DNA from: Pseudofrankia coriaricola
GTDB taxonomy: Bacteria > Actinomycetota > Actinomycetes > Frankiales > Frankiaceae
NCBI RefSeq assembly: GCF_001854805.1
Contig: NZ_MBLO01000251.1
Coordinates: 1-44,515 of the forward strand
Direction: 5' to 3'
DNA length: 44,515 nt
The notes under the pieces are model-generated. The model ran no database searches, was not told the DNA's origin, and saw only the letters and a program-made list of their open reading frames with translations. Within the stretch, counting starts at the first letter, position 1; every line of letters starts with the position of its first letter. Both the position numbers and the translations under genes were made by a program. Positions 10,610-25,957 of the stretch are shown here, one piece after another.

Positions 10610-11230
10610 CTACCGCGGCCGCAGGACGGCGAGCGCGGAGCGCAGCAGGGCGGAGACGTCGCCCTCGGCGCCGTCGCCCGTCGCCTCCACGGCGTCCGCC
10701 GCCTCGCGGGTCGAGTACCCGAGGCCGACCAGCGCATCCGTCACCTGCTCGGCCGCGGTCCGCGGCGTGGGCATGATCCGTCCCGAGGCGCTGGCGCCGA
10801 GGCCGGCGCGCGGCGTCGCGCCACCCGCCGGCGGGCCGAGCTTGCCCTTGAGATCCAGCACGATCCGCTGGGCGCCCTTGCGGCCGATGCCAGGCACCTT
10901 CGTCAGCACCGCCAGGTCCTCCTCGGCGACGGCGCGGCGCACGTCGTCCGGCGCCAGCACCCCGAGGACGGCCTGCGCGAGCTTCGGGCCGACTCCGCCG
11001 GCGGCCTGCAGAATCTCGAACACCTCCCGCTCGTCCGCGTCCGCGAACCCGTACAGCGTCAGCTCGGTCTCGCGGACCACCAGCGTGGTCGCGAGCCGCG
11101 CCGGCTCGCCGGCCGCGAGCCCGGCCAGCGTCGCCGGGGTGCACTGCACCAGGAGCCCCACCCCGCCGACCTCGACCACGGCCGCGGTCGGCGACACCGA
11201 CAGCACCGTGCCGGCGACCGACGCGATCAC
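10610..11230 (-). CDS. ruvA: Holliday junction DNA-binding protein RuvA
   Basis: Tetrameric junction-binding partner of RuvB; 206 residues, a normal length. It has an N-terminal OB-fold ([20 protein letters not shown]), then helix-hairpin-helix motifs including [11 protein letters not shown] and [16 protein letters not shown], and a C-terminal domain III ([15 protein letters not shown]). The GTG at 11230 overlaps the ruvC stop by four bases (GTGA), so the two are translationally coupled. Confidence 0.96.
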
Positions 11231-11787
11231 GCCGGTCCCCCGGCCGGCCGCGGCGCGGCGCCGGCTCGGGCGGCGTTCACGCCGGCCGCCGCGGCACGCA
11301 CCCGGGCGAGCGCGGGCCCGCGCCAGACATGGCACAGCGCGAGCGCGAGCGCGTCGGCGGCGTCCGCCGGCCTGGGCGGCGCCGCGAGGTCGAGCAGCTT
11401 CGTGATCATGAAGGTCACCTGGCTCTTGTCCGCCCGGCCGCTGCCGGTGACGGCGGCCTTGACCTCGCTCGGGGTGTACAGGGCGACCGGCAGGCCGCGC
11501 CGCGCCGCGAGCACGATCGCGACCGCGCCGACCTGCGCGGTGCCCATCACAGTGCGCACGTTGGCCTGGCTGAACACCCGCTCCACCGCGACCGCGTCCG
11601 GGCGGTGCCGGTCCAGCCAGGACTCGATCTCCAGCGAGATGTCCCGGAGCCGGATCGCCACGTCCTCATCGGCCGGCGTCCGGGCGACCCCCACATCCAC
11701 AAGCGTCGCCCGCCGCCCCGCACCCCCACCGTCCACAACCCCAAGCCCACACCTCGTCAGCCCCGGATCGACGCCCAGCACCCGCAC
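11227..11787 (-). CDS. ruvC: Holliday junction resolvase RuvC
   Basis: Endonuclease that cuts Holliday junctions in the RuvABC resolvasome; 186 residues from a GTG at 11787. Acidic catalytic residues are visible in VLGVDPG (first Asp), VAVERVF (Glu), and the C-terminal [13 protein letters not shown] segment. GGAGG lies 8 bases before the GTG. The open frame continues upstream, but only into a palindromic intergenic repeat, so longer versions are not credible. First gene of ruvC-ruvA-ruvB, with a LexA-like box 43 bp upstream. Confidence 0.96.
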
Positions 11788-11830
11788 GCGCCAAACCTCC
11801 ACCAGGACAGGAGCCCGATCGCCAGGACAG

Positions 11831-11844
11831 CGAACGCCTGTTCG
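11831..11844. promoter_or_regulatory. LexA/SOS box upstream of ruvC
   Basis: CGAACGCCTGTTCG is a perfect palindrome apart from its four-base centre. It matches the core of the Gram-positive/actinobacterial LexA box (TCGAAC-N4-GTTCGA), differing only at the two outermost bases. It lies 43 bp upstream of the ruvC start, where a repressor would block the promoter. This fits the known damage-inducible control of ruv genes. Binding itself is inferred. Confidence 0.75.
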
Positions 11845-11899
11845 GATCCTAGGCGCCCGACGCATCCGGACATCGCCGACACGCGGAAGCTGTGTCTCT

Positions 11900-12404
11900 G
11901 GTTCGCTCCGTGCGGGCACGGCGCTACGGCCCCTTACTCGCTTCGCTCCCAAGGGACCTCCGCGCCGTGTCCTCCTCCGCGAACGTGCGCTACGGCGACC
12001 TCGCTGCGGCCCCCCTACGTCGCTTCGCTCGTAGGAGGGCCTCCGCGAGGTGCGCCTCCGCGCCCAGCGCGGTTGCGTCCCGTCGCACGTCACCAAGCCA
12101 AAGCCGCACACCGGGCGGGGCCACGTCGCTTCGCTCGTGGTCGTGCCTCCGGGGAAGTCCCTACGAGCGAAGCGAAGTGGGGCGCCGCGTGGGTGCCGCT
12201 TCGGACTGGTGACGTTCAAGTGCGACGCATCCACGCTGGCGCGGAGGCGTGCCTCCGCGGAGGCCCGGCCACGAGCGAAGCGACGTGGTTGGGCCGCAGC
12301 GGAGGTCGCCGGAGCGCACGTGAGCGCAGGAGGACGGCGCGCGGAGGTCCCTTGGGAGCGAAGCGAGTAAGGGGCCGGAGCGCGCCGCCCGGACGGAGCG
12401 AACC
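11900..12404. repeat. R1 large palindromic element, copy a
   Basis: An approximately 505 bp imperfect palindrome: arms 11900-12112 and 12192-12404 run inward from GGTTCGCTCCG to a spacer of about 80 bp. Within it are six short hairpins with the core TCGCTTCGCTC (or its complement) and different stems. They are CCCTT/AAGGG (11931-11955), CCTAC/GTAGG (12014-12035), CCACG/CGTGG (12121-12140 and 12269-12288), CCCTT/AAGGG (12349-12373) and an imperfect one at 12160-12180. Most are followed or preceded by CCTCCGCG or its complement. It fills the gap between ruvC and the yebC-like gene. Arg-rich open frames cross it on both strands and are probably not genes. Homology with copy b extends to about 12425. 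Confidence 0.88.
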
Positions 12405-12477
12405 AGCAAACAACCTTCTGCCCCGACCCCGCCCGACACTGGTCAAGGCTTTCTCCAGTCAACCCCGCCCCCGCTAC

Positions 12478-13233
12478 CTAACCCGCGACGAGCTCCATGA
12501 CCTCGTCGGAGATGTCGGCGTTGAACCAGACGGACTGGACGTCGTCGAGGTCCTCAAGGGCATCGACGATCTTGAGCACCTTGCGGGCGGGCTCGGCCTC
12601 CAGCGGCACGCTGACGCTCGGGAGCCAGGAGATCTCGGCGGAGTCCACCGTCAGGCCCGCGTCCGTCGCCGCGACCCGCACCGTGTGCAGGTCGGTGGCC
12701 TCGGCGACCACCTCGAAGGCCTCACCGAGATCGTTGACCTCGTCGGCGCCGGCGTCGAGGACCGCCAGCAGCACGTCGTCCTCGGTCAGCCCCGCGGTCT
12801 TGGTGACCAGCACGACGCCCTTGCGGTTGAACAGGTAGGCGACCGAACCCGGGTCGGCGATCGTGCCGCCGTTGCGGGTGACGGCCACCCGGACGTCGGA
12901 GGCGGCACGGTTGCGGTTGTCGGTGAGGCACTCGACCATCACCGCGACCCCGCTCGGGCCGTACGCCTCGTAGGTGATCGACTCGTAGGTCACGCCGCCA
13001 GCCAGCTCGCCGGAGCCGCGTTTGACCGCGCGCTCGATGTTGTCGTTCGGCACCGACTGCGACTTCGCCTTCGCGATCGCGTCGGCGAGGGTGGGGTTAC
13101 CGGCCGGGTCTCCGCCGCCGGTCTTCGCGGCCACCTCGATCGTCTTGATCAGCTTGGCGAACAGCTTGCCACGACGGGCGTCGATGACCGCCTTCTTGTG
13201 CTTCGTGGTCGCCCACTTGGAGTGACCGCTCAT
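12478..13233 (-). CDS. YebC/PmpR-family protein
   Basis: A 251-residue cytoplasmic protein of the YebC/PmpR/TACO1 family. The diagnostic N-terminus [20 protein letters not shown] is present, followed by [36 protein letters not shown] and the C-terminal acidic [16 protein letters not shown] motif. Members have been described as DNA-binding regulators and, more recently, as translation factors that relieve ribosome stalling, so the role here is left open. Its position between ruvC and pdxT matches mycobacteria. The ATG is preceded by GGGGCAGGC. Confidence 0.95.
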
Positions 13234-13679
13234 GCCTGCCCCTCTGTTGACCCAACGCCTCCAGCGACGCGACGATGCAGCACGGTCGCGCCTCCTTCGG
13301 CCAGTCCGTCGGCCCGGCCGTTCCCGGCACGGGAAACTTCATGATCGCACAAGGCTGGTGGGTGCGCGAGAATGGCGGAGCCTCGCGCACCTGAGGCCAA
13401 GTTCTGGCTGTCAGGCCGGGCGGGCACCAATGCCGGCCGGCCGGGTGAACGTAGTGTTTCCTCCTACCATCTTTGCAACGACCTCGGGTCGCCCAGCCCC
13501 TCGGGTCGAGCGAAGCTCGACGACCGGGAACGGCCCGCGGAGCGCCGTCGCCGGCGTCCTGGGAGCCGGCCGGGGCGCCTCACCCACCGCGGGCTGGGTG
13601 AAACCGTGCCGGCCGCCCGCCATCCCGCGGGCCACGACGGGCCACCGCGGGCCAGGGGACGGCCCAGCGCCGGGCGCCG
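13234..13679. other. Gene-free gap between yebC-like gene and pdxT
   Basis: About 446 bp upstream of the yebC-like gene. No convincing frame was found. A small hairpin GTCGAGC-GAA-GCTCGAC occurs near 13504-13522. The first 130 bp presumably hold the promoter of the yebC-like gene, but no clear -35/-10 pair could be assigned. Confidence 0.5.
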
Positions 13680-14285
13680 TCAGCCCCGCGCGGGCCGGCG
13701 GGCCACCAGGTCGACGAACAGCTCGTGCATCCGAATGTCCCCCGTCAGCTCCGGGTGGAACGACGTCGCCAGCAGGTGGCCCTGCCGGACCGCCACAGGG
13801 TGTTCCCCGACTCTGGCGAGGATCGTCACCCCATCTCCGGCCTTCTCCACCCATGGCGCGCGGATGAACACGGCGTGCAGCGGCGGGCCGGTCAGGCCCT
13901 CGACCTCCAGGTCGGCCTCGAACGAGTCGACCTGCCGGCCGAAGGCGTTGCGCCGCACGACGACGTCGAGCCCGCCGATCAGCGGCTGGTCCGGGCGGCC
14001 GTCGAGCACGTCCTGAGCGAGCAGGATCATCCCGGCGCATGAGCCGTACACCGGCAGGCCGTCGCCGACCGCGGCGCGCAGCGGCTCGAGCAGCCCGAAG
14101 ATCCGCAGCAGCCGCCCGATCGCCGTCGACTCCCCGCCCGGCAGGACGAGCCCGTCGACGGCGGCGAGCTCCTCGGGCCGGCGCACCTCGACCGCCTCCG
14201 CCCCGGCCGCCGCCAGCGCCCGGGCATGCTCCCGCACGTCCCCCTGCAGCGCCAGCACCCCGATGCGGGCATTGGTCGAAGTCAC
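13680..14285 (-). CDS. pdxT: Pyridoxal 5'-phosphate synthase glutaminase subunit PdxT
   Basis: Glutaminase that supplies ammonia to PdxS for de novo pyridoxal phosphate synthesis; 201 residues, a normal length. Class I-type glutamine amidotransferase features are visible: [13 protein letters not shown] at the start, the LVLPGGEST oxyanion region, catalytic Cys in [10 protein letters not shown], and the His-Glu pair in SFHPEL. It follows pdxS on the same strand, but the 172 bp gap between them carries an R3-type structured repeat. Confidence 0.96.
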
Positions 14286-14298
14286 GTCCGCCTCTCTG

Positions 14299-14425
14299 GC
14301 CGCGCGAAGCGCGGCATCGGGAGGCCCGGGGCCCCGGACCCCCCGAGGATCCGCGGCAGCGGATCTCCGGGGGAGGTGTCCCCCCGGGTCGACATCGCGG
14401 GCACTGGGGAAGCTGCCCGAAGGGC
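14299..14425. repeat. R3-like structured repeat, diverged copy in pdxS-pdxT gap
   Basis: Resembles the blocks next to the tRNA-Val genes: a GCCGCGC-GAA-GCGCGGC hairpin (14299-14315), then runs of G and C able to pair, then GACATCGCGG, then a region ending GCTGCCCGAAGGGCAGCGA with a GCTGCCC-GAA-GGGCAGC hairpin. The order of parts is the same as at 23741-23880, but the sequence is much more diverged. It lies between two genes expected to be co-transcribed. Confidence 0.6.
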
Positions 14426-14457
14426 AGCGAACAGGGGTGTCCGCCTCGCCGCCGAGC

Positions 14458-15402
14458 TCACCACCCGCGGTCGGCGTAGCGGGCCGCCGCGGGCAGCTCG
14501 CCCACGTTGATGCCGACCATGGCCTCGCCGAGACCGCGGGAGACCTTGGCGATCACACCGGGGTCGTTGTACATCGTCGTCGCCTCGACGATCGCCCGCG
14601 CCCGCTTGGCCGGGTCGCCGGACTTGAAGATGCCGGAGCCGACGAACACGCCGTCGGCGCCGAGCTGCATCATCAGTGCCGCGTCCGCCGGGGTGGCGAT
14701 GCCGCCGGCTGTGAACAGCACGACCGGCAGCTTGCCGAGCCGGGCCACCTCCGCGACCAGGTCATGCGGCGCGCGCAGCTCCTTGGCGGCGGCGTAGAGC
14801 TCGTCCGCGGGCAGCGTCGACAGCCGGGCGATCTCCCCGCGGATCGTGCGCATGTGCACGACGGCGTTGGACACCTCGCCGGTGCCCGCCTCGCCCTTCG
14901 AGCGGATCATCGCGGCGCCCTCGGAGATCCGCCGCAACGCCTCGCCCAGGTTCGTCGCGCCGCAGACGAACGGGACCGTGAACGCCCACTTGTCGATGTG
15001 GTGGTGCGGGTCGGCCGGGGTGAGCACCTCGGACTCGTCGACGTAGTCGACGCCCAGAGCCTGCAGCACCTGCGCCTCGACGAAGTGCCCGATCCGGGCC
15101 TTCGCCATGACCGGGATGGAGACGGCCTCGACGATCCCCTGGATCATGTCAGGATCGCTCATCCGGGCGACGCCGCCCTGGGCGCGGATGTCGGCGGGGA
15201 CCCGCTCGAGCGCCATCACGGCGACGGCCCCGGCGTCCTCGGCGATCTTGGCCTGCTCAGGTGTGACCACGTCCATGATCACACCACCCTTGAGCATCTC
15301 GGCCATGCCGCGCTTCACGGGCATGGTGCCGGCCTGCCTCGCCGGCCCGGCGGGCGCGGGGACTCCGGCGGGCGTTCCAGCTGGCGTAGCTCCGGCAGGC
15401 AT
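14458..15402 (-). CDS. pdxS: Pyridoxal 5'-phosphate synthase lyase subunit PdxS
   Basis: TIM-barrel enzyme that builds pyridoxal phosphate from ribose 5-phosphate, glyceraldehyde 3-phosphate and ammonia from PdxT. It has 314 residues from the ATG at 15402. The region from [18 protein letters not shown] onward is strongly family-like: [16 protein letters not shown], the catalytic lysine region [14 protein letters not shown], and [21 protein letters not shown] 20-residue Ala/Pro/Gly-rich extension precedes the conserved start. An ATG at 15453 is also in frame; neither has a strong ribosome binding site. Confidence 0.96.
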
Positions 15403-15774
15403 GGCGATCCGTCTCTCTCGGGTGTCCTCGTCACGGTCAGGTGCTCCGGTCATGTCCCGCGCCGGTCGGCCCTCGGCCGTGGCGGCCGCGTGCCTCCTGT
15501 CGTCCCGACGGACCACAGAACCCGCGCGTCGGGGCCGGACAGGGCAGGCATTGGAAGGCGGTTCGGGGCTTTGCCCCAGCCCTCGGCCGGCCTTCCCGAC
15601 CGGCCTCAGGTGATCCCCGGCCGGCCGCCACGGCCAGCCCTCACCGCGCCCCGGGCGGACATACCACCACCATGGTACGGCCGGACGCCGCACCCGACCC
15701 TCATCACGACACGTCCCGCTGATCACTCCCGGCGGCTGGCGCCCCCGGCCACTCCGCCGCTCCGGCCACCACCG
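15403..15774. other. Gene-free gap upstream of pdxS
   Basis: About 370 bp. No supported gene. A GGGGC-TTT-GCCCC hairpin occurs near 15567-15580, similar to a sub-motif of the R3 blocks. The part nearest 15402 should contain the pdxS promoter, which could not be defined by eye. Confidence 0.45.
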
Positions 15775-16356
15775 CTATATGGCTCCGCCCGGAACCACCC
15801 GGGTCGGGCGCCCAATGCCCGGCGGCGGGGCGCCCAGCGGCCCGCCCCGCGCCGGCAGGGCGTCGTCGATCTCGAAGTAGGCCGGCAGCGGGCGCCGGCT
15901 GCCCAGGCGCGTCATCCGCACCAGGCGCCGGCCACGCAGCGCCCGCAGGTCGCGCACCGCGTCGTTGTGCAGCTGGCGGGCAAGCGCCACCCGGGCCGCC
16001 GCCGAGTCGACGGCGTGCAGTAGCTCAGGGGCACCCTGGCCGGCGCTGCCCACCTCGGGCGCGCGCAGCGCACGGCTGAGCTCGTTCTCCGTGTCCTCGA
16101 CGCCGTTGTCCAGCGACGCGCCGGCCCGCAGCGCCGCATGCCCGGCCAGCGCCTGCTCGGCCGCCGCTGCCAGCGAGACGAGCCCGCGGCTTTCGGCCAG
16201 TGCGACCGCCGCCTGGGCGCGGGCGGCGAGCTGGGCGACCAGCCCGGCCCGGGCCGCGTCCACCCGGACGCCGAGCCGGTCGAGGCGACGGGCGATCCAG
16301 GTGAGGTAGGTCGCGATCGCCACCACGACGGCGACCACGGCCACGACGACTGTCAT
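15775..16356 (-). CDS. LemA-like single-pass membrane protein, function unknown
   Basis: 193 residues. The first 20 residues form a membrane helix (VVVAVVAVVVAIATYLTWIA). A long Ala-rich, largely helical region follows with coiled-coil character, containing the segment VALARQLHNDAVRDLRALR. The C-terminus holds PLPAYFEIDD and a Pro/Gly-rich tail. The membrane anchor plus the N-D-A-V helix and YFEIDD-like end resemble LemA-type proteins and a conserved actinobacterial protein encoded near pimA. No catalytic motif is visible. It lies 78 bp downstream of pimA, beyond a hairpin, so it may have its own promoter. Confidence 0.75.
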   Translation of the reverse strand: MTVVVAVVAVVVAIATYLTWIARRLDRLGVRVDAARAGLVAQLAARAQAAVALAESRGLVSLAAAAEQALAGHAALRAGASLDNGVEDTENELSRALRAPEVGSAGQGAPELLHAVDSAAARVALARQLHNDAVRDLRALRGRRLVRMTRLGSRRPLPAYFEIDDALPARGGPLGAPPPGIGRPTRVVPGGAI

Positions 16357-16413
16357 TCCGGGCAGCGTAGACGACCAGGCGACCGCCCGGCCCGGGACGT
16401 CCCAAGCATCACA

Positions 16414-16436
16414 GAACCTTCCGCCCAGGAAGGTTC
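16414..16436. terminator. Hairpin at the end of pimA
   Basis: GAACCTTCC, a five-base loop and GGAAGGTTC form a perfect 9 bp stem overlapping the pimA stop codon. On the minus strand it is followed by TGTGATGCTTG rather than a T-run, as is common for high-GC terminators. It probably ends the pgsA-acyltransferase-pimA transcript. Confidence 0.6.
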
Positions 16437-17574
16437 AGGCGTCCGCGGCGGAGGCCAGGGAGACGGGGTCTGCGCCGGCGGTGACCATGCGGTAGATGTC
16501 GACGATCGACTCGACGATCACCGGCCAGTCGTAGCCGGCGACGAGGGCCCGGCCGCGCCGGGCGAGCGCGGCGCGCGCCGCGTCGTCGCCGAGCAGGTCG
16601 GCGAGCCCCGCGGCGAGCTGGGCCGGCTCGCCGACGCCGAACAGCCGCCCCGCCCTGCCGTCGTCCAGCACCCGGCGGAACGCGTCGAGGTCGCTGGCCA
16701 TGACGGGGGTTCCCGCCGCCATCGCCTCCAGCAGCACGATGCCGAAGCTCTCCTGGCCGGTGTTCGGCGCGCAGTACACGTCGGCGGAGGCGAACACCCG
16801 GGCCTTGTCCTCCCCCGGCACGAGGCCGACGAGGTCCACCCGGTCACGCAGCGGTGGGTCGAGCCGGGATCGCACCGCCGCCACGTCACCCGGGCCGGCG
16901 ACAAGCAGGCGCACGCCCGGCACCCGGCGGGCGAGTTCCGGGAGCGCGGCGAGCAGTACGTCCAGCCCCTTGCGGGGCTCGTCGATGCGCCCGAGGAAGC
17001 ACACGGTGTGCCGCGGCGGCTCGTAGCCGGGCAGCGGGCGGGCGTCCGCGAACGCGGCGACGCGCACCCCGTTCGGGATCAGTACCGCGCTGGTGCCGAG
17101 ATGCTCGACGATCGTGCGCCTGGCCGCCTCGGAGACGGCGATCCGGGCTCGCAGTTTCTCCAGCGATGGCTGGAGGGCGCCCTGGGCGGCGGTGAGGATC
17201 TTCGAACGCGGGTTGGCCGTGTGGAAGGTGCCGATGATCGGGCCGTCGGCGAGCATGCAGGCGAGCAGGCCGACGCTCGGAGCGGTCGGCTCGTGGACGT
17301 GCAGCACGTCGAAGTCGTGCTCACGCAGCCAGCGGCGCACCCGCGTCGCCGAGACCGGGCCCATCAGCACCCGGGACACCGAGCCGTTGTACGGCACCGG
17401 CAGCGCACGGCCGGCGTCGACGGCGTAGGGCGGCAGCGCGTCCGCGTCGTCGACCGGAGTGATCACCGACACCTCGTGCCCGGCCGCGATCAGCGTCTCC
17501 GCCAGGTCCCGGACGTGGACCTGCACCCCGCCCGGGACGTCCCAGGTGTAAGGACAGGCCAGCCCGACCCTCAC
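16435..17574 (-). CDS. pimA: Phosphatidyl-myo-inositol alpha-mannosyltransferase PimA
   Basis: GT-B (family GT4) glycosyltransferase that adds the first mannose from GDP-mannose to phosphatidylinositol on the inner face of the membrane; 379 residues. It starts MRVGLACPYTWDVPGGVQVH with the glycine-rich acceptor loop. It carries HVHEPTAPS, the donor-side FLGRIDEPRKGLDVLL and LVAGPGD, and the E-x7-E motif ESFGIVLLEAMAAGTPVMAS. Its start overlaps the end of the acyltransferase gene by four bases (ATGA). Gene order pgsA-acyltransferase-pimA is that of mycobacteria, which supports PimA over other GT4 enzymes. Confidence 0.94.
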   Translation of the reverse strand: MRVGLACPYTWDVPGGVQVHVRDLAETLIAAGHEVSVITPVDDADALPPYAVDAGRALPVPYNGSVSRVLMGPVSATRVRRWLREHDFDVLHVHEPTAPSVGLLACMLADGPIIGTFHTANPRSKILTAAQGALQPSLEKLRARIAVSEAARRTIVEHLGTSAVLIPNGVRVAAFADARPLPGYEPPRHTVCFLGRIDEPRKGLDVLLAALPELARRVPGVRLLVAGPGDVAAVRSRLDPPLRDRVDLVGLVPGEDKARVFASADVYCAPNTGQESFGIVLLEAMAAGTPVMASDLDAFRRVLDDGRAGRLFGVGEPAQLAAGLADLLGDDAARAALARRGRALVAGYDWPVIVESIVDIYRMVTAGADPVSLASAADA

Positions 17575-18545
17575 CGCTCTCCCGGCCCCGACGGGCCGCC
17601 GTTCCCGCCGGCCTCGACGTCACCGTTCCCACCGGCCGCGCCACCGGGCGCCGCCTGGCCGGCGGCCCGCTCCGGCGCCGCCCCGTCCGGCTCGTCCAGC
17701 CAGACACGCTGCAGCATGTGCCAGTCGGCCGGGTGCTCGACGATGACCGCCGCGAACGCGTCGGCCATTTCCTGGGTCATCGTCGCCACGTCGGTGTGCT
17801 CGACGGGCGGGAAGATCCGCCCGCGCCACGCCTTTCCCTCGAACCAGAGCGTGGTCGGCAGCAACGCGGCGCCGGTGCGCAGCGCGAGCGCCGCCGGCCC
17901 CGCCGCCATCCGCGCCGACGCGCCGAAGAAGTCCACGGGCACACCGCGCGCGGACAGGTCCCGGTCGGCCAGCAGGCAGAGGCAGCCGCCGGCCAGGAGC
18001 CGCTCGATGAGCAGCGCCGACGGCGGCTCGGCGCCGCCGGTGAGCGGGATGACCTCCATCCCGAGCGACTCGCGGAACGCGACGAACCGGTCGAACAGCG
18101 ACTCGGGCTTCAGCCGCTCGGCGACGGTGGTGAAGGGCACGCCGGTGCCCGCGAGCCAGGCGCCGGCCTGCTCCCAGTTCCCCATGTGCGGCAGCGCCAG
18201 GATCATGCCCTTGCCGGCGGCGTACGCGTCGCGCAGGTAGTGCTCGTCGTGGATGAACATGTCCCCGATGTAGCGCTCGGGCGGCATGTCCTGGAGCCGG
18301 AAGACCTCGAGCCAGTAGCGCGCGTACGAGCGCATTGCGGCCTTCGTCAGTGCGTCGAGGTCGGTGCCGTCGGGCACGGCGTGCGCAAGGTTCGACCGCA
18401 GCCGCCGCACTCCCTTGCCACCGCGGCGGGTAGCCCAGTCGGCCCCGGCGGCGAAACCGCGCGCGGCGAGCCGCTCGGGCAGCGCGCGCACGACCCGCCA
18501 GCCCACGGCATAGGTGAGGTCGGTGAACCGTCCGGAGGAGGGCAC
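17571..18545 (-). CDS. Phosphatidylinositol mannoside acyltransferase (PatA-like)
   Basis: 324-residue member of the LpxL/HtrB acyltransferase superfamily. In mycobacteria the equivalent enzyme acylates the mannose of PIM1/PIM2. The catalytic His-x4-Glu is visible in ALPHMGNWEQAG. Other conserved segments are IPLTGGAEPPSALLIERLLAGG and LADRDLSARGVPVDFFG. The C-terminal 35 residues are Gly/Ala-rich. It lies between pgsA (18 bp upstream) and pimA (4 bp overlap), consistent with one operon for PIM synthesis. Confidence 0.93.
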   Translation of the reverse strand: MPSSGRFTDLTYAVGWRVVRALPERLAARGFAAGADWATRRGGKGVRRLRSNLAHAVPDGTDLDALTKAAMRSYARYWLEVFRLQDMPPERYIGDMFIHDEHYLRDAYAAGKGMILALPHMGNWEQAGAWLAGTGVPFTTVAERLKPESLFDRFVAFRESLGMEVIPLTGGAEPPSALLIERLLAGGCLCLLADRDLSARGVPVDFFGASARMAAGPAALALRTGAALLPTTLWFEGKAWRGRIFPPVEHTDVATMTQEMADAFAAVIVEHPADWHMLQRVWLDEPDGAAPERAAGQAAPGGAAGGNGDVEAGGNGGPSGPGER

Positions 18546-18562
18546 GGGACGCGGCCCCCGGT

Positions 18563-19384
18563 TCAGCCGGCCGAGGTGACCGGACCGGCCGCCTCGACAC
18601 CGACGACCGCGCCGACCACGGCCCTCTGGCCCACCGGGCCGGCGGCCCGATCAGCCGAAGCCCCGTAAGCGGGCGCCCCGTTGGCCGCCGCCCCGTTGGC
18701 CGAGGGCTGGTCAGCCGAAGGCTCGCCAGCCGGCAGGGCGTCGGCGCCCGCGGCCTCCGGCGACGCGGCACCCGCGCCGCCGGAACGCTGGAACTGCCGG
18801 TACACGTGCCAGATCCGCTGGATGACCGTGATGACGGTCGCCGCGGCGAGCACCCACAGCGCGATCGGCAGCAGGTACGGCACACCGAGGCCATAGAGGC
18901 CAGAGGCGACGAGCAGGACAAGCAGCCGCTCGCCGCGCTCGGCGAGGCCGACGTTGCAGGTGAAACCGAGGCTTTCCGCCCGCGCCTTGACGTAGGACGT
19001 GACGGCGGCCGCGACCAGGCTGATCAGCGCCGCCCCGGCCAGCGGCAACGAGTCGCCGTCGCCCGCGTACCAGATCACCAGGGAGCCGAAGACCGCGCCG
19101 TCGCCCAGCCGGTCGGAGGTGGAGTCGAGGAAGGCGCCCCACTTCGACGAGATCCCGCGAGCCCGAGCGATCGCGCCGTCGATGAGATCCGAGAAGACGA
19201 ACAGCGTGATCACGATGGTGCCGAGGAAGAACACGCCCCGGGTAAAGAAGCCGAGCGCGCCGCCGACCACTCCGACCGTGCCGATGATCGTCACCAGGTC
19301 CGGGGAGAGCGACGTCCTGGCCGCCCATCGGCTGAACGGCTCCAGCAGCCGGTTGATCTGCGGCCGCGCCTTGCTAGCGAGCAT
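18563..19384 (-). CDS. pgsA: Phosphatidylinositol phosphate synthase PgsA (CDP-alcohol phosphatidyltransferase)
   Basis: Membrane enzyme joining CDP-diacylglycerol to inositol phosphate, the first step towards phosphatidylinositol and PIMs. About 273 residues from the ATG at 19384; a GTG at 19429 is also in frame, and neither has a clear ribosome binding site. The CDP-alcohol transferase signature D-x2-D-G-x2-A-R-x8-G-x3-D-x3-D is complete in DLIDGAIARARGISSKWGAF followed by LDSTSDR. Several membrane helices surround it. The last 70 residues are an Ala/Pro-rich tail absent from mycobacterial PgsA. The start lies about 55 bp from the edge of an R1 palindrome. Confidence 0.93.
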   Translation of the reverse strand: MLASKARPQINRLLEPFSRWAARTSLSPDLVTIIGTVGVVGGALGFFTRGVFFLGTIVITLFVFSDLIDGAIARARGISSKWGAFLDSTSDRLGDGAVFGSLVIWYAGDGDSLPLAGAALISLVAAAVTSYVKARAESLGFTCNVGLAERGERLLVLLVASGLYGLGVPYLLPIALWVLAAATVITVIQRIWHVYRQFQRSGGAGAASPEAAGADALPAGEPSADQPSANGAAANGAPAYGASADRAAGPVGQRAVVGAVVGVEAAGPVTSAG

Positions 19385-19438
19385 GTCCGTCCCGTCGTGT
19401 CCGGCGCGGTGTTCTTCGCGCGGGTTCACTGTATTGCT

Positions 19439-20000
19439 GGTTCGCTCCGTCCGGGCACGGCGCTACGGCCCCTTCCTTGCTTCGCTGCGGAAGGGACCTC
19501 CGCGCCGCGGGGTTCCTGCCGGATCGACGGAGCCTGCGGAGTCGATCTGGGAGGTCCGCCTCCTCCGCTCACGGGCGCTCCGGCGACCTCGCTGCGGCCC
19601 GCCTACATCGCTGCGCTCGTAGGCGGGCCTCCGCGAGGCGCGCCTCCGCGCCCAGCACGGTCACCCGCCGATGGAGCGTCACGGACCGGGCCAGGGGGGT
19701 GGTGTCGGAAGCACTTCGCTGCGCTCGTGCGGTGGGTTTCGCGTCCGAGCGGTGGCTTCCGCAGGGATCTAGCTTCGGGTCAGGCCCGGTCTTGGATTGG
19801 TGATGTTGCGGCGGCACGCAACCGGGCTGGCGCGGAGGCGCGCCTGCGCGGAGGCCCGGCCCACGAGCGAAGCGACGTGGGTTGGGCCGCAGCGCAGGTC
19901 GCCGGAGCGCACGTGAGCGGAGGAGGACACGGCGCGGAGTGGTCGTCCGAGCCGCCAGGCGAGGACGGCCACGGAGCGCCGTGCCCGGACGGAGCGAACC
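19439..20000. repeat. R1 large palindromic element, copy b, interrupted by R2
   Basis: Second copy of the palindrome seen at 11900-12404, again starting GGTTCGCTCCGTCCGGGC and ending with its complement. Hairpins around the conserved core: CCTTCC/GGAAGG (19471-19494), GCCTAC/GTAGGC (19601-19624), GCAC/GTGC (19711-19730) and CCCACG/CGTGGG (19860-19881). The left arm carries an extra stretch at about 19509-19558 relative to copy a. Just outside the right end both copies continue with similar ACAACCTTC sequence. It lies between pgsA and the EF-G2 gene, and no real gene is inside. Confidence 0.87.
19509..19558. repeat. R2 palindrome inserted in R1 copy b
   Basis: Copy a of R1 reads GACCTCCGCGCCGTG directly into CCTCCTCCGC. 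Copy b has about 48 extra bases at this point, beginning GGTTCCTGCCGGATCGAC and ending GTCGATCTGGGAGGTCC. These can fold into a hairpin (CCGGATCGAC against GTCGATCTGG). The same sequence occurs at 30421-30575 and elsewhere, so this looks like a small palindromic element that entered R1. Confidence 0.75.
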
Positions 20001-20086
20001 ATGACAACCTTCCCGCCCGGCCCCAGGCTTGTCCCAGAGCGAACCACCGGACTTGTGCTTTAGGTCACATGAGCGCAGGCTGGGCG

Positions 20087-20328: not shown

Positions 20329-22446
20329 ATGCCGTCTGCCGCGGCTAATGTCCGCAACGTCGTCCTCGTGGGTCACACCGGCGCGGGAAAGACCGCGCTG
20401 GTCGAGGACCTGCTCACCGTGACCGGCGCCGCGAGCGCCGGGCAGAGCCGCGAGCAGGCCCGCCACGGGGACGGCGAGCACCGTTCGACCCGCGGGATCA
20501 GCCTCACGCTGTCCGCGTTGCGCCATCGAAACATGACGATCAACCTGCTGGACACCCCCGGCTACCCGGACTTCGTCGGCGAGCTGCGCGCCGGGCTGCG
20601 CGCCGCCGACGCCGCGCTGTTCATCGTCAGCGCGGTCGACGGCATCGACGGCGCCACCAGGGCGCTGTGGGCCGAGTGCTCGGACGTGAACATGCCACGC
20701 GCCGTCGTCGTCACCCGCCTCGACCATCCCAGGGCCGACTTCACCGCCGCCGTCGCCGCCTGCCAGGACGCCTTCGGCACCGGCGTCCTGCCCGTCTTCC
20801 TGCCCGACGGCGCCGCCCAGGGCGGTGACGAGGCCCGCCTGGTCGGGCTGCTCACCGGCCGCGTCGTCGAGTACGGCCGCGGAGGCCGGCACGAGGTCGA
20901 CGAGCCCGCCGGGCTCGACGGCACCTTCGAGGCGGCCCGGGGCGCGCTGATCGAGGGCATCATCGCCGAGAGCGAGGACGAGGGCCTGCTCGACCGCTAC
21001 CTCGGCGGTGAGGAGCTCGACCCCAAGATGCTGCTCGACGACGCCGAGACCGCCATCGCGCACGGCTCCTTCCACCCCGTGCTCCCGTTCGCGCGCGCCA
21101 CGAACGGTGCCGGCCCGCCCGTCGGCTCGGTCGAGCTGCTCGACATGATGGTCGACGCGTTCCCCTCCCCCGCCGAACACCCGATGCCGCCGCTCACCCG
21201 CTGCGACGGGTCGGACTGCCCACGGATCTCCGCCGACCCGGACGGTCCGCTGCTCGCCGAGGTCGTACGCACCACCACCGACCCCTACGTCGGGCGGATG
21301 TCGGTCGTGCGGGTCTTCTCCGGCACGCTGCGCCCCGACGCCACGGTGCACGTATCAGGCCACGGGCGCGCCGCCGCCGGCCACCCCGACCACGACGTCG
21401 ACGAGAAGATCGGCGGGCTGTCGCTGCCCGAGGGCACCGCGCTGCACCCCGTCGACGCCTGCCCGGCCGGCGGCATCTGCGTGGTGACGAAGCTCGGCAC
21501 CGCCGAGACCGGTGACACCCTCTCCGACCGGGACGACCCACGCCTGCTCGCGCCGTGGGCGATGCCGGAGCCGTTGCTGCCGATCGCGATCGACCCGCGC
21601 ACCAAGTCCGATGAGGACAAGCTGCCGGGGGCGCTCGCGCGCCTGGCCGCCGAGGACCCGACGGTGACCGTGCGGACGGACACCGAGACCGGGCAGCTGC
21701 TGCTGTGGTGCATAGGCGAGGCGCACGCCGACGTGCTGCTCGACCGGCTCGCGAGCCGGTACAGCGTCGACGTCGACCGCGGCGAGCCGCGGATCGCGCT
21801 GCGCGAGACCCTGCGCGGCGCGGCACACGGCCTCGGCCGGCACGTCAAGCAGTCCGGCGGGCACGGCCAGTACGCGATCTGCCAGATCGAGGTGGAGCCC
21901 CTCCCCGCTGGCTCGGGCCTCCAGTTCATCGACAAGATCGTCGGTGGCGCGGTCCCCCGCTCGTTCATCCCGTCCGTGGAGAAGGGCATCGCCGCCCAGA
22001 TGGCCAAGGGTGTCGCCACCGGCTGCCCGATGGTCGACATCCGGGTCCGCCTCGTCGACGGCAAGGCCCACAGCGTCGACTCGTCCGACATGGCGTTCCA
22101 GATCGCCGGCGGCCTCGCCCTGCGCGACGCCGCCGCGAAGGCCGGGGTGGCGCTGCTCGAGCCGATCCTGGAGGTCTCCGTCCTCGTGCCCGACGAGCAC
22201 GTGGGCGCGGTCATGGGTGACCTCTCGGGCCGCCGCGGCCGCGTGATCGGGATGGAGCCCCTGGGCGCGGGCGACGTCGGTCGCACCGTCATCAGGGCGG
22301 AGGTCCCCGAGCTGGAGATGATCCGCTACGCCATCGAGCTGCGTTCCCTTACCCAGGGCACCGGCACCTTCACCCGCTCCCCGGCTCGCTACGAGCCCAT
22401 GCCCGACCATGTGGCATCCACGATGATCCGCGACCGCGCCAGCTGA
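20329..22446 (+). CDS. Elongation factor G-like protein EF-G2
   Basis: Translation-factor GTPase paralogue of 705 residues. The P-loop GHTGAGKT and the EF-G domains II-V are present (for example HVKQSGGHGQYAICQIEVEP in domain IV and RGRVIGMEPLG in domain V). Two GTPase motifs deviate. The switch II His of EF-G is Tyr (DTPGYPDF, Y79). The NKxD guanine-specificity motif reads T129-R-L-D. Both are in line with the actinobacterial EF-G2 family, reported not to replace EF-G in translation. GGAGG lies 6 bases before the ATG. The gene sits alone on the plus strand, splitting a cluster (HIT, pgsA, acyltransferase, pimA) that is contiguous in mycobacteria. True function unknown. Confidence 0.92.
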   Translation: MPSAAANVRNVVLVGHTGAGKTALVEDLLTVTGAASAGQSREQARHGDGEHRSTRGISLTLSALRHRNMTINLLDTPGYPDFVGELRAGLRAADAALFIVSAVDGIDGATRALWAECSDVNMPRAVVVTRLDHPRADFTAAVAACQDAFGTGVLPVFLPDGAAQGGDEARLVGLLTGRVVEYGRGGRHEVDEPAGLDGTFEAARGALIEGIIAESEDEGLLDRYLGGEELDPKMLLDDAETAIAHGSFHPVLPFARATNGAGPPVGSVELLDMMVDAFPSPAEHPMPPLTRCDGSDCPRISADPDGPLLAEVVRTTTDPYVGRMSVVRVFSGTLRPDATVHVSGHGRAAAGHPDHDVDEKIGGLSLPEGTALHPVDACPAGGICVVTKLGTAETGDTLSDRDDPRLLAPWAMPEPLLPIAIDPRTKSDEDKLPGALARLAAEDPTVTVRTDTETGQLLLWCIGEAHADVLLDRLASRYSVDVDRGEPRIALRETLRGAAHGLGRHVKQSGGHGQYAICQIEVEPLPAGSGLQFIDKIVGGAVPRSFIPSVEKGIAAQMAKGVATGCPMVDIRVRLVDGKAHSVDSSDMAFQIAGGLALRDAAAKAGVALLEPILEVSVLVPDEHVGAVMGDLSGRRGRVIGMEPLGAGDVGRTVIRAEVPELEMIRYAIELRSLTQGTGTFTRSPARYEPMPDHVASTMIRDRAS

Positions 22447-23888: not shown

Positions 23889-23960
23889 TGGGCGTACGTG
23901 GTTTCGAACCACGGACCTCTGCCGTGTGAAGGCAGCGCTCTACCCCTGAGCTATACGCCC
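23889..23960 (-). tRNA. tRNA-Val (anticodon CAC)
   Basis: 72 nt cloverleaf: acceptor GGGCGTA/TACGCCC, D-arm AGCTCAGGGGTAGAGC, anticodon stem CTGCC/GGCAG with loop TTCACAC (anticodon CAC), and T-arm CGTGG-TTCGAAA-CCACG. Discriminator A; the CCA end is not encoded. The gene stands alone, about 1.7 kb from the other three tRNAs. Confidence 0.96.
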
Positions 23961-24484
23961 GCTAGTCGCAGCCGAACTCGATCTCTGGCCGGATGGTCGA
24001 GTAGTCCCTGACCGATCATCTCGTCGATCAACCACTCCACCGACCAGTCCCTCGATCGACTGACTGTGGGACTCAGCTTACACAACCCGATGGGAGGGAT
24101 GAAACGGCGTGCCGCATGGGCTCCGCGTGGGTCGAGCCTCGCGTCAGGGGCATGTCCGTCCCATGTCTGACTGATGTTCGGTCACTGGGGCTCCTGTGGG
24201 CGTTGGTCGGCACTCGCCGTGGTTGAGGACCGCGCCGCGGGGAACGATGTCGGGGCACGGCCACGGCAGTGGGGTCCGTGTCCGGGAGGTTCCCGGTGGG
24301 GTCGCAACGAGGACCGACGTCGCCTCCCGGTGGCTCGGACCGACGCCGGCCCCCCGCAACGGGGACCTGACGGATGTGGGCGCCTCTCCCAGAGACTCGC
24401 GACGCGGATCTTTGGGGATCCAGGGCTCCCCGGACGGGCAACTCGCCCGAACCGTCGTAACAGATGTTGTCTTGGCATAACCTT
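23961..24484. other. Gap upstream of tRNA-Val(CAC) and ssgB-like gene
   Basis: About 520 bp separating two divergent genes. It should contain the tRNA promoter on the minus strand (a weak extended -10, TGTGTAAGCT, lies near 24072-24085) and the start of the ssgB-like control region. No gene was supported. Confidence 0.4.
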
Positions 24485-24511
24485 GTTTCCTACGAGACGC
24501 AGAGTGGGAAC
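24485..24511 (+). promoter_or_regulatory. Candidate SigB/SigH-type promoter of the ssgB-like gene
   Basis: GTTTCC (24485-24490) and GGGAAC (24506-24511), 15 bases apart, resemble the GTTT/GGGTAT pattern of stress-type sigma factors of the SigB/SigH/SigF group. The start codon lies about 55 bp downstream. ssgB of Streptomyces coelicolor is reported to use SigH, which makes the match worth noting. The -10 match is imperfect. Confidence 0.45.
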
Positions 24512-24565
24512 TATCTCGTTACACGGGTGCTCGCCCGCACCACCGCACCGCTGAGAGGCCGCCCG

Positions 24566-24997
24566 ATGACTATTCGTCACGATTCGATCACCGCAGAACT
24601 CGCCCTCCGGCTCGTCGTGCCAGGGGGTGCCCCGGTCCCAGTCGCCGCGACGGTCCGGTATGAGCCCGACGACCCATATGCGGTCAGCATCGGGTTCCGC
24701 ACCGGAGCGGACGAGGTCGTCGAGTGGACCTTCGCCCGGCAGCTCCTGAGCGACGGCGTCCGTCGCCCGGCCGGTGACGGGGACGTCCAGGTCTGGCCCG
24801 CGGCGCAGTCGGGCGGCAGGATCGTCTGCCTGTCGCTGTCGAGCCCGTCAGGGCACGCCCTGTTCGAGATGCCCCGCTCAGAGGTGCTGGCGTTCCTACG
24901 CCGCACCTACGCGGCCGTCCCTCTCGGCAGTGAGAGCGACGTGATCGACCTCGACGCCGAGCTGGCTCTCCTCATCTGGGGTGGCCCCGACCGGTGA
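24566..24997 (+). CDS. ssgB: SsgA-like sporulation/cell-division regulator (SsgB-like)
   Basis: 143-residue protein of the SsgA-like family, restricted to morphologically complex actinobacteria. SsgB recruits FtsZ to sporulation septa. Conserved segments are LALRLVVPGGAPVPV, YEPDDPYAVSIGFRTGADE, VEWTFARQLLSDGVRRPAG, GDVQVWPA and the C-terminal IDLDAELALLIW. The ATG at 24566 is preceded by GAGAGG at 7 bases. In-frame sequence upstream does not resemble the family. It stands alone on the plus strand with its own terminator. Assignment to SsgB rather than another SsgA-like paralogue rests on overall similarity and is less certain. Confidence 0.88.
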   Translation: MTIRHDSITAELALRLVVPGGAPVPVAATVRYEPDDPYAVSIGFRTGADEVVEWTFARQLLSDGVRRPAGDGDVQVWPAAQSGGRIVCLSLSSPSGHALFEMPRSEVLAFLRRTYAAVPLGSESDVIDLDAELALLIWGGPDR

Positions 24998-25077
24998 TGC
25001 GCCCGGGTCGGGCGCCGCCAGGGCCCGACCCGCGAATTCCGGTGCGGGCACCGTCCGGCGAACGACATATCGCCAGG

Positions 25078-25112
25078 CCCGTCCGGTGGGCCCCCCACCG
25101 GACGGGTTTTTT
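25078..25112 (+). terminator. Rho-independent terminator of the ssgB-like gene
   Basis: CCCGTCCGGTGGG (25078-25090), a CCC loop, CCCACCGGACGGG (25094-25106) and then TTTTTT. A perfect 13 bp stem with a T-run, 80 bp after the stop codon. Confidence 0.95.
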
Positions 25113-25464
25113 CGCCCCGCAATCCGGTTGGGCACCACACCGCCGACATGGCGCCACGGCCCAGGCCGCGACCGACGCCGCCGGCTGCTCTCACGATCAC
25201 CCAGGCCAGACGTCCCGCTCCGGCGTCATCCGGCCGACCCACCACTTCCGGGGTACCGCATCGCCTACGCAGGCAAGCTCATCGAAGCGCCACCAAGTGC
25301 CCCAGGCCGACAGCCCTCCGCCGCCAAGCCAACCACCCGCGGCCCCACCAGCCCACCACGACAAACCCACCCCGGCCGGCAAGATCGGCAGCCCATCGCA
25401 AATCGCCCAAACACGACCACGCAGAGCCGGCACCTCATCGGGACACACCAAGCGCGGCCATACA
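25113..25464. other. C/A-rich gap before second R3 copy
   Basis: About 350 bp of C/A-rich plus strand similar in composition to 23087-23685. The last 25 bp (25440-25464) are related to 23662-23685, so the duplicated segment is slightly longer than the near-identical core. No gene seen. Confidence 0.45.
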
Positions 25465-25666
25465 AAGCCGGCAGCCCATCGCGCCGCACCCGAAACAACG
25501 CCACGCAAGAAACGAGAAAGGCCGCAACACGCGAAGCGCGAGCGGCCGGGGGTGTCGGGGGGCAAAGCCCCCTGACCCGGGGGTTCCAGGGGGTCGCCCC
25601 CTTGGGCAGACATCGCGGCCGGTGGCGAAGCCGCCAAAAGGCGGCGAGCAGCCGAATCCCGGCTCG
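25465..25666 (-). repeat. R3 repeat, copy 2, 3' of tRNA-Val(GAC)
   Basis: A 202 bp block differing from copy 1 at only about five or six positions and one indel. It has the same internal hairpins and the same terminator-like element (GGCCGC...GCGGCC at 25520-25547, followed on the minus strand by TTTCTCGTTTCTTG). It ends exactly at the tRNA 3' end. Confidence 0.9.
25506..25547 (-). terminator. Intrinsic terminator of the Gly-Cys-Val tRNA cluster
   Basis: Same structure as the one at 23727-23768: a GGCCGC/GCGGCC stem with an inner CGCG-CTT-CGCG element, followed on the minus strand by a T-rich tract. It lies about 120 bp beyond tRNA-Val(GAC), the last tRNA of the three-gene cluster. Confidence 0.7.
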
Positions 25667-25738
25667 TGGGCGATACTGGGATTGAACCAGTGGCCTCTAC
25701 CGTGTCAAGGTAGCGCTCTCCCACTGAGCTAATCGCCC
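25667..25738 (-). tRNA. tRNA-Val (anticodon GAC)
   Basis: 72 nt: acceptor GGGCGAT/ATCGCCC, D-arm AGCTCAGTGGGAGAGC, anticodon stem CTACC/GGTAG with loop TTGACAC (anticodon GAC), T-arm ACTGG-TTCAATC-CCAGT. No encoded CCA. Last gene of a Gly-Cys-Val cluster on the minus strand, an arrangement common in actinobacteria. Confidence 0.96.
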
Positions 25739-25767
25739 GAAAGGGTTTTTACACCCGTGTAAGTGCG

Positions 25768-25839
25768 AGGCGGAGGCGGGAATCGAACCCGCGTACAGGG
25801 CTTTGCAGGCCCTTGCCTAAGCCACTCGGCCACTCCGCC
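25768..25839 (-). tRNA. tRNA-Cys (anticodon GCA)
   Basis: 72 nt: acceptor GGCGGAG/CTCCGCC, anticodon stem AGGGC/GCCCT with loop CTGCAAA (anticodon GCA), T-arm CGGG-TTCGATT-CCCG. 29 bp from tRNA-Val(GAC). Confidence 0.96.
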
Positions 25840-25884
25840 GGAGGAGGCCTTGACGGGCTTGACCTCGTGACCTCGCTACTTCCG

Positions 25885-25957
25885 AGCGGACGACGGGATT
25901 CGAACCCGCGACCCTCACCTTGGCAAGGTGATGCTCTACCAACTGAGCCACGTCCGC
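25885..25957 (-). tRNA. tRNA-Gly (anticodon GCC)
   Basis: 73 nt: acceptor GCGGACG/CGTCCGC, D-arm GGCTCAGTTGGTAGAGC, anticodon stem TCACC/GGTGA with loop TTGCCAA (anticodon GCC), T-arm CGGG-TTCGAAT-CCCG. First gene of the cluster. A GTGACA lies about 30 bp upstream but no well-spaced -10 could be assigned. Confidence 0.96.

Follow-up and report, generated by a model that had tools for sequence, protein, structure and literature searches.

Modular hairpin repeats in Pseudofrankia: a probable family of non-autonomous mobile elements

What kind of element are the two palindromes of about 500 bp that lie between genes in contig NZ_MBLO01000251.1 of Pseudofrankia coriaricola? We analysed positions 1 to 44,515 of this contig (hereafter the window, 44,515 nucleotides), for which an earlier interpretation made from the letters alone, the sequence-only reading, had offered three roles: a structured non-coding RNA, a chromosome-organising site or a non-autonomous mobile element. 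Both palindromes are copies of a dispersed modular family in which two nested hairpins per arm keep their structure through covariation, and which is confined, so far as found, to the soil actinobacterium genus Pseudofrankia (Frankia cluster 4). Among the three roles the mobile element is the best fit, because orthologous sites occur both with and without the element; a structured RNA is possible, and the chromosome-organising site found no support. We think it probable that the family is a genus-restricted, non-autonomous mobile element resembling BOX and miniature inverted-repeat transposable elements (MITEs), that is, a small interspersed repeat inserting between genes, whose folded single strand would be recognised by an enzyme supplied in trans.

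Module architecture of the element

Both palindromes lie where they had been described (11900-12404 and 19439-20000) and both are bounded by GGTTCGCTCCG and CGGAGCGAACC. These limits stand as to position and fall short as to extent: both elements run ~10 nt past GGTTCG in a variable tail, and each has one extra outer module on its right side. Copy 1 has outer arms with 84% complementarity across 120 nt, while in copy 2 complementarity amounts to 82% in the outermost 51 nt and 97% in an inner 31-nt pair, its additional hairpins being degenerate or replaced. Folded as RNA, the copies reach z-scores against shuffles of -26 (copy 1) and -18 (copy 2). The core TCGCTKCGCTC occurs nine times in the window vs. 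0.18 expected, always inside the two elements, and 335 times genome-wide vs. 153 for a reversed control pattern. All stems listed in the sequence-only reading are present, and exact cores number six in copy 1 and three in copy 2 rather than about ten per copy.

The genome to which the window belongs (G000; 11.2 Mb, 280 contigs) gave 164 blastn matches to copy 1, both strands of a palindrome being counted. Module profiles built from 60 stretches of G000, each surrounding a core or match and together a subset of the copies, resolve the family into a 102-nt head module A, which starts at GGTTCGCTCCG and carries hairpin 1, and an 81-nt module B, which carries hairpin 2 and a tail and recurs at a spacing of ~105-108 nt. 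An element has either a single arm, A-B(n), or two arms placed head-to-head, A-B(n)-b(m)-a, with A outermost except in a few rearranged copies and B mostly in one to four repeats. The 60 stretches and the window together gave 68 mapped elements: 35 with two arms, 30 with one and three of other form; among those with one arm, L115 at least abuts a contig end. Arms of the same element share an identity of 0.863 vs. 0.889 for random arms (32 pairs; 995 of 1000 random samples equal or higher). The ~500-bp palindrome is therefore better described as arms of repeat modules, given that 30 of the 68 elements have one arm and that arms within an element resemble each other slightly less than random arms do; the latter also rules out arm-to-arm gene conversion as the maker of the palindromes. 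By eye, many two-armed copies carry an outer module E on one of their ends. Shortened copies exist, down to bare inverted ends; a strict pattern finds one such minimal palindrome in G000, two in G005 (P. asymbiotica) and one in G002, and misses those of loci L179, L183 and L184.

Related repeats were also noted. A second subfamily, TCGCTTCGCTCCGGTCGGGACCTCCGG...CTTCGCTCCG with a GCCAGTCAGG stretch, occurs at loci L043, L050, L054, L056 and L063 (G001, G002 and G006), and a diverged A-like unit (CTTCGCTCCGTCCGCAACGA...) forms a tandem pair at L161:3080-3251, possibly another subfamily.

Covariation of the hairpin stems

The sequence-only reading had proposed compensatory change around a fixed core, to be judged by covariation beyond phylogeny, and stems that differ yet remain paired. 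Among 145 heads with the exact core, the hairpin 1 stem is CCCTT/AAGGG in 80, CCCGT/ACGGG in 51 and CCCTC/GAGGG in seven, with CTCGT/ACGAG (three), CCCCT/AGGGG (one) and mismatched stems (three) making up the remainder. Shuffling stem partners between copies abolishes pairing: the mean best stem score of B modules with the core (n = 228) is 6.74 as observed and 3.58 (sd 0.12) after shuffling. In 46 aligned arms, 98.9% of cells are paired vs. 32-43% with slid partners, and both sides have changed in 18 pairs, a count not reached in any of 500 shuffles.

We then compared 144 arms with 100 simulated alignments based on the inferred tree, scoring 54 predicted pairs and 18,528 column pairs. Covariation summed over the predicted pairs is 1784, whereas the simulations have a mean of 1 and a maximum of 76 and slid partners give 174-513, so that compensatory change is borne out genome-wide, far above the phylogenetic null. 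Seven of the top ten column pairs are predicted base pairs; individually, only three of the 18,528 pairs reach E < 0.05, all of them predicted, and the evidence is overwhelming only as a structure-wide sum.

Distribution in and beyond Pseudofrankia

A covariance model of head A matched 114 times in G000, a minimum for the head modules of this genome, and 66 times in G005, 12 in G001, 40 in G004, 67 in G006, 24 in G002 and 16 in G003; it found nothing in the eighth Pseudofrankia genome (G007), nor in any of 27 genomes representing six other Frankiaceae genera. Outside the family Frankiaceae, coverage comprised 23 genomes of other classes (with one core-pair pattern), GTDB contigs (with a 29-base pattern), plasmids, phages and viral contigs. 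The 29-base pattern hit 41 stretches, in Frankia and Pseudofrankia records only, and no element was found in the plasmids, phages and viral contigs. At gathering score, Rfam 15 matched only four tRNAs in the window and neither element; three matches to copy 1 at E <= 1 all lie far under the gathering score, and the window has no group II intron match. Titles and abstract beginnings of the open-licence PMC literature on Frankia/Pseudofrankia and on repetitive extragenic palindromes (REP) or MITEs in Actinobacteria, subscription papers being outside this scope, mention no such family; palindromic repeats of four Frankia strains are tabulated in the supplement of PMC4447401, to judge from the part of that paper available.

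Within the large contig G006:C1, copies are spread from 38 kb to 7.4 Mb. One-armed copies of G006 show no strand bias relative to dnaA that is apparent by eye, no statistic having been computed; dnaA itself lies at 1.41 Mb. The same contig has an element-poor stretch of 3.5 Mb (~2.9-6.4 Mb) with no blastn match and, among the model matches listed, a single one at 4.607 Mb.

Presence and absence at orthologous sites

Upstream of the elongation-factor-G-like gene, the site of copy 2, the element is present in G000 only, one of eight genomes, and the seven congeners have no exact core or end within ~960 bp. The copy 1 site between yebC and ruvC holds a two-armed element in G000 and a one-armed element in P. 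asymbiotica; the remaining six congeners show neither an exact core nor an exact end there. G005 and G006 were also inspected at 20 further sites, the tallies being our own reading. Of 18 usable sites in G005, six lack the element, five carry it, three hold a minimal palindrome and four a remnant; at 19 sites in G006 the corresponding numbers are five without, 12 with and two remnants. A clear length difference comes from a locus outside this set, where ~515 bp with the element in G000 (L126) are cleanly absent in P. asymbiotica (L085), leaving a gap of 20-30 bp.

Loops, strand preference and ends

The commonest tip, read on the bottom strand, is GA-GC-GAA-GC-GA, which presumably forms tandem sheared G-A pairs and a GNA triloop. 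The variable place of the core is T in 165, G in one and C in one of 210 A matches (exact core absent in 43), and T in 208, G in 19 and C in one of 267 B matches (absent in 39). In some copies the tip is replaced by GA-GCC-GCCA-GGC-GA or by a longer hairpin with GA...GA retained; in another variant, CA-GC-GAA-GC-AA, this frame is lost (e.g., in the left arm of copy 2). The bottom strand has the lower RNA folding energy in 152 of 153 arms, and likewise with DNA parameters (152 of 153). In 60 of the 153 arms, the bottom-minus-top difference averages -17.2 kcal/mol vs. -8.0 in shuffles with the same dinucleotides, and z is lower on the bottom strand in 54 of these 60.

Outside CGAACC, elements continue into a variable, A-rich stretch of ~10 nt that ends in G and gives way to GC-rich background. 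In 129 distinct tails not adjoining E, A occupies positions 1, 3, 4, 5, 7 and 9 in 127, 59, 64, 97, 85 and 75 cases, and G position 10 in 95. Read inward, the tail often provides TGA or TAA, and by our own count the stop codon of a gene precedes 29 of 100 A ends by no more than 12 bp. With genes called by our own codon-usage open reading frame caller, the 64 elements with both neighbours lie between convergent (23), tandem (34) or divergent (7) genes, figures for which no genome background was computed; one-armed copies with A at the left show no clear orientation (13 '--' vs. 8 '++' gene pairs). At the left ends of L119, L121, L124, L135, L137, L144 and L158, partial ends are stacked before a full element (e.g., GGTTCGCTGTATTTCTGGTTCGCTCCG) and look as if inserted into, or copied beside, older ends.

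Mode of spread and alternative explanations

We propose that the unit of the family is the arm, consisting of head A with its terminal GGTTCGCTCCG and ~10-nt tail, usually followed by one to four B modules, and that presence and absence would reflect insertion and not loss alone. The arm may act as a folded single strand, namely the bottom strand, as single-stranded DNA or RNA. Its hairpins, and the end made of CGAACC and the tail, would be recognised by an enzyme supplied in trans, which would then insert the element. Paired stems would thus be kept by selection for recognition by this enzyme and not for a host function. Inserts would be retained at sites where the damage is small, mostly in convergent or tandem gaps, often right behind a stop codon and sometimes supplying the stop.

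Several observations weigh against this proposal. The scored structure was favoured in the covariation test because RNAalifold predicted it from the same alignment. Base composition accounts for about half of the strand preference, which is therefore moderate and does not tell RNA and single-stranded DNA apart. Neither a transposase with matching ends nor an autonomous copy was seen, only four between-arm genes having been scanned, and these four, rejected as candidates for an autonomous transposase, are all ordinary (a phosphorylase, a hydrolase, a peptidase M24 and a DUF4097 protein). At the copy 2 site ~130 bp of G005 and G006 are gone in G000, so that sequence was replaced and not cleanly split, and no target-site duplication could be demonstrated at the junctions examined, because these are too diverged or, at the copy 2 site, replaced. 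Absence in G005 is over-represented in the site counts because the 14 loci left aside, L126 among them, were ones with G005 counterparts already retrieved on account of their elements. Given the remnants and minimal palindromes in relatives, loss is common, and deletion therefore accounts for part of the presence and absence. At some sites the element seems to have been inherited vertically: orthologous A modules have an identity of 0.904 vs. 0.884 at random (n = 23, of which one pair, an arm set against a neighbouring element, is mispaired and to be dropped), and 93 of 2000 random samples are as high. The first nine pairs alone gave no excess (0.879 vs. 0.883), a hint of complete turnover that the 23 pairs weakened; the small margin of orthologous heads over random ones indicates a mixture of old sites and sites that have turned over.

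A retroposon mechanism would make the family a bacterial counterpart of short interspersed nuclear elements (SINEs), a reading we consider unlikely. The parasite would be an arm of bottom-strand RNA or single-stranded DNA with nested sheared-GA/GNA hairpins, its 3' end formed by CGAACC and the A-rich tail, inserted in trans by an unrelated enzyme such as the reverse transcriptase (RT) of a group II intron, which would copy it; it would often end up as head-to-head pairs, its own tail would serve as a replacement stop codon, and variation in B number would arise on its 5' side. The outward tail, A-rich, variable and followed by GC-rich background, agrees with this, as does the head match that reaches the outer end of the model in 67 of 68 elements while the inner end varies, in stretches chosen by cores and copy 1 matches. 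RVT_1 domains, moreover, occur in all seven element-bearing genomes and were not found in G007, and five of eight fetched RT loci contain group II intron RNA. This co-occurrence is suggestive at most: one negative genome makes no statistic, G007 is small and fragmented (850 contigs), and the eight RT loci hold no significant match to A or B (best E 0.19). Target duplication was likewise not demonstrated, and 35 of the 68 elements are two-headed and would have two outward 3' ends. The RT loci (L236-L243, from G000 and congeners) include several in group II introns, and G002 has six equal-score matches with a 448-aa frame. A REP/RAYT system is excluded, no Y1_Tnp domain (PF01797) occurring in the seven element-bearing genomes; its sole match comes from G007, the genome in which no element was found.

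The strong covariation and moderate strand preference would also suit a host-useful RNA, with selection at the transcript level preserving intergenic hairpins that act as terminators, stabilisers of mRNA 3' ends or processing sites. That many ends follow a stop codon and that copies sit in convergent gaps points the same way, though with no genome background. Such a role is nevertheless quite improbable to us, since one-armed copies lack a clear gene orientation (13 '--' vs. 8 '++'), the same genes differ between species in having the element, no U-run follows the ends on our own reading, and Rfam yields no match at gathering score. Pairing could also persist with no selection at all. Templated quasi-palindrome correction during replication is a known process, and covariation would then be a mutational by-product in elements that are hairpin-rich and easily shortened, as the minimal palindromes illustrate. 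This predicts, however, that arms correct each other, yet two arms of an element resemble each other less than random arms do, and it predicts neither the strand preference left after composition control nor loop swaps that mostly retain the GA...GA frame; we hold it to be very unlikely. Least probable appears a chromosome-organising or replication-related DNA hairpin site resembling the telomere palindromes of Streptomyces, with which the many copies and the bottom-strand loop letters (GAA, less often GCA) would agree, but not their internal, species-specific positions or the lack of apparent strand bias against dnaA in G006 (by eye).

In this family, which is probably mobile, structural constraint on the hairpin units can be measured and several stem allele classes occur within one genome; recognition of a mobile hairpin is therefore directly testable. 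The elements explain part of the intergenic variation in Pseudofrankia, can serve as strain markers and are candidates for trans-mobilisation without a dedicated transposase.

Features of the window

Coordinates of both copies, their modules and the neighbouring genes are collected in Table 1. The four tRNA genes of the window lie on the minus strand at 23889-25957.

Table 1 Elements, modules and neighbouring genes in the window
Feature	Positions	Strand	Basis or context
Copy 1, two-armed A-B-B-b-a, including left tail CTGTGTCTCT (11890-11899)	11890..12404		between yebC and ruvC
Copy 1 left-arm head module A; core hairpin 11938-11948	11900..12001	+	nhmmer module map, covariance-model match
Copy 1 module B; core 12020-12030	12017..12095	+	nhmmer module map
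Copy 1 second module B, partial; core 12126-12136	12123..12188	+	nhmmer module map
Copy 1 right-arm module b; core 12273-12283	12207..12286	-	nhmmer module map
Copy 1 right-arm head module a; core 12356-12366	12303..12404	-	nhmmer module map, covariance-model match
Copy 1 outer module E (AGCAAACAACCTTCTGCCCCGACCCC...); outer limit approximate	12405..12450	-	flank comparison by eye
Copy 2, two-armed A-B-b-a, including left tail CTGTATTGCT (19429-19438)	19429..20000		arm comparison, module map
Copy 2 head module A; hairpin 1 core altered, ~50 nt inserted	19439..19589	+	nhmmer module map
Copy 2 module B; core 19608-19618, GCA-loop variant TCGCTGCGCTC	19605..19682	+	nhmmer module map
Copy 2 module b; core 19865-19875	19798..19878	-	nhmmer module map
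Copy 2 head module a; hairpin 1 with alternative loop GAGCCGCCAGGCGA	19896..20000	-	sequence, module map
Copy 2 outer module E, terminating in another GAGCGAACC	20001..20045	-	by eye
yebC (neighbour, context)	12478..13233	-	Pfam PF01709, PF20772
Open frame with ruvC (neighbour, context); RuvC domain residues 38-188	11227..11892	-	Pfam PF02075
CDP-alcohol phosphatidyltransferase (neighbour, context)	18563..19384	-	Pfam PF01066
Elongation-factor-G-like GTPase (neighbour, context)	20329..22446	+	Pfam PF00009, PF03764 and others

Comparison with known systems

REP, BIME and REPIN sequences are repetitive extragenic palindromes with associated RAYT transposases. The Pseudofrankia units resemble them as extragenic hairpins that occur singly or as inverted pairs, few of them between divergent genes, but are much longer and modular, and the seven element-bearing genomes all lack Y1_Tnp. 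Telomere palindromes of Streptomyces, according to the part of PMC4513846 available, bind Tap in single-stranded form, and sheared G-A pairs close their GCA loops; the likeness lies in hairpin arrays with GNA loops and extends to loop letters only, whereas the Pseudofrankia copies are dispersed inside contigs, not at replicon ends, and their positions differ between species.

BOX of Streptococcus pneumoniae has the composition boxA-boxB(n)-boxC and is judged non-autonomous, mobile and parasitic in the portion of PMC3049150 available; our comparison with it is one of architecture. Both are modular interspersed repeats with constant outer modules, a variable number of inner modules and strong RNA structure, A-B(n) or A-B(n)-b(m)-a in our case; the Pseudofrankia element differs in being GC-rich, in its two-armed, head-to-head copies being the commonest form, in the covarying nested hairpins of each arm and in that no resident insertion sequence with matching ends was seen for it. 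With MITEs it shares short length (below ~1 kb), lack of coding capacity, inverted ends (both in 35 of the 68 elements, 30 being one-armed), strong folding and presence or absence among relatives. MITEs are called AT-rich in the same portion of PMC3049150, whereas the present element is GC-rich, is commonly one-armed and has no parent transposon found among the four between-arm genes scanned. On our best reading the element works like BOX and MITEs; we claim membership in neither and regard it as a new family within a familiar type of element, unusual in its architecture.

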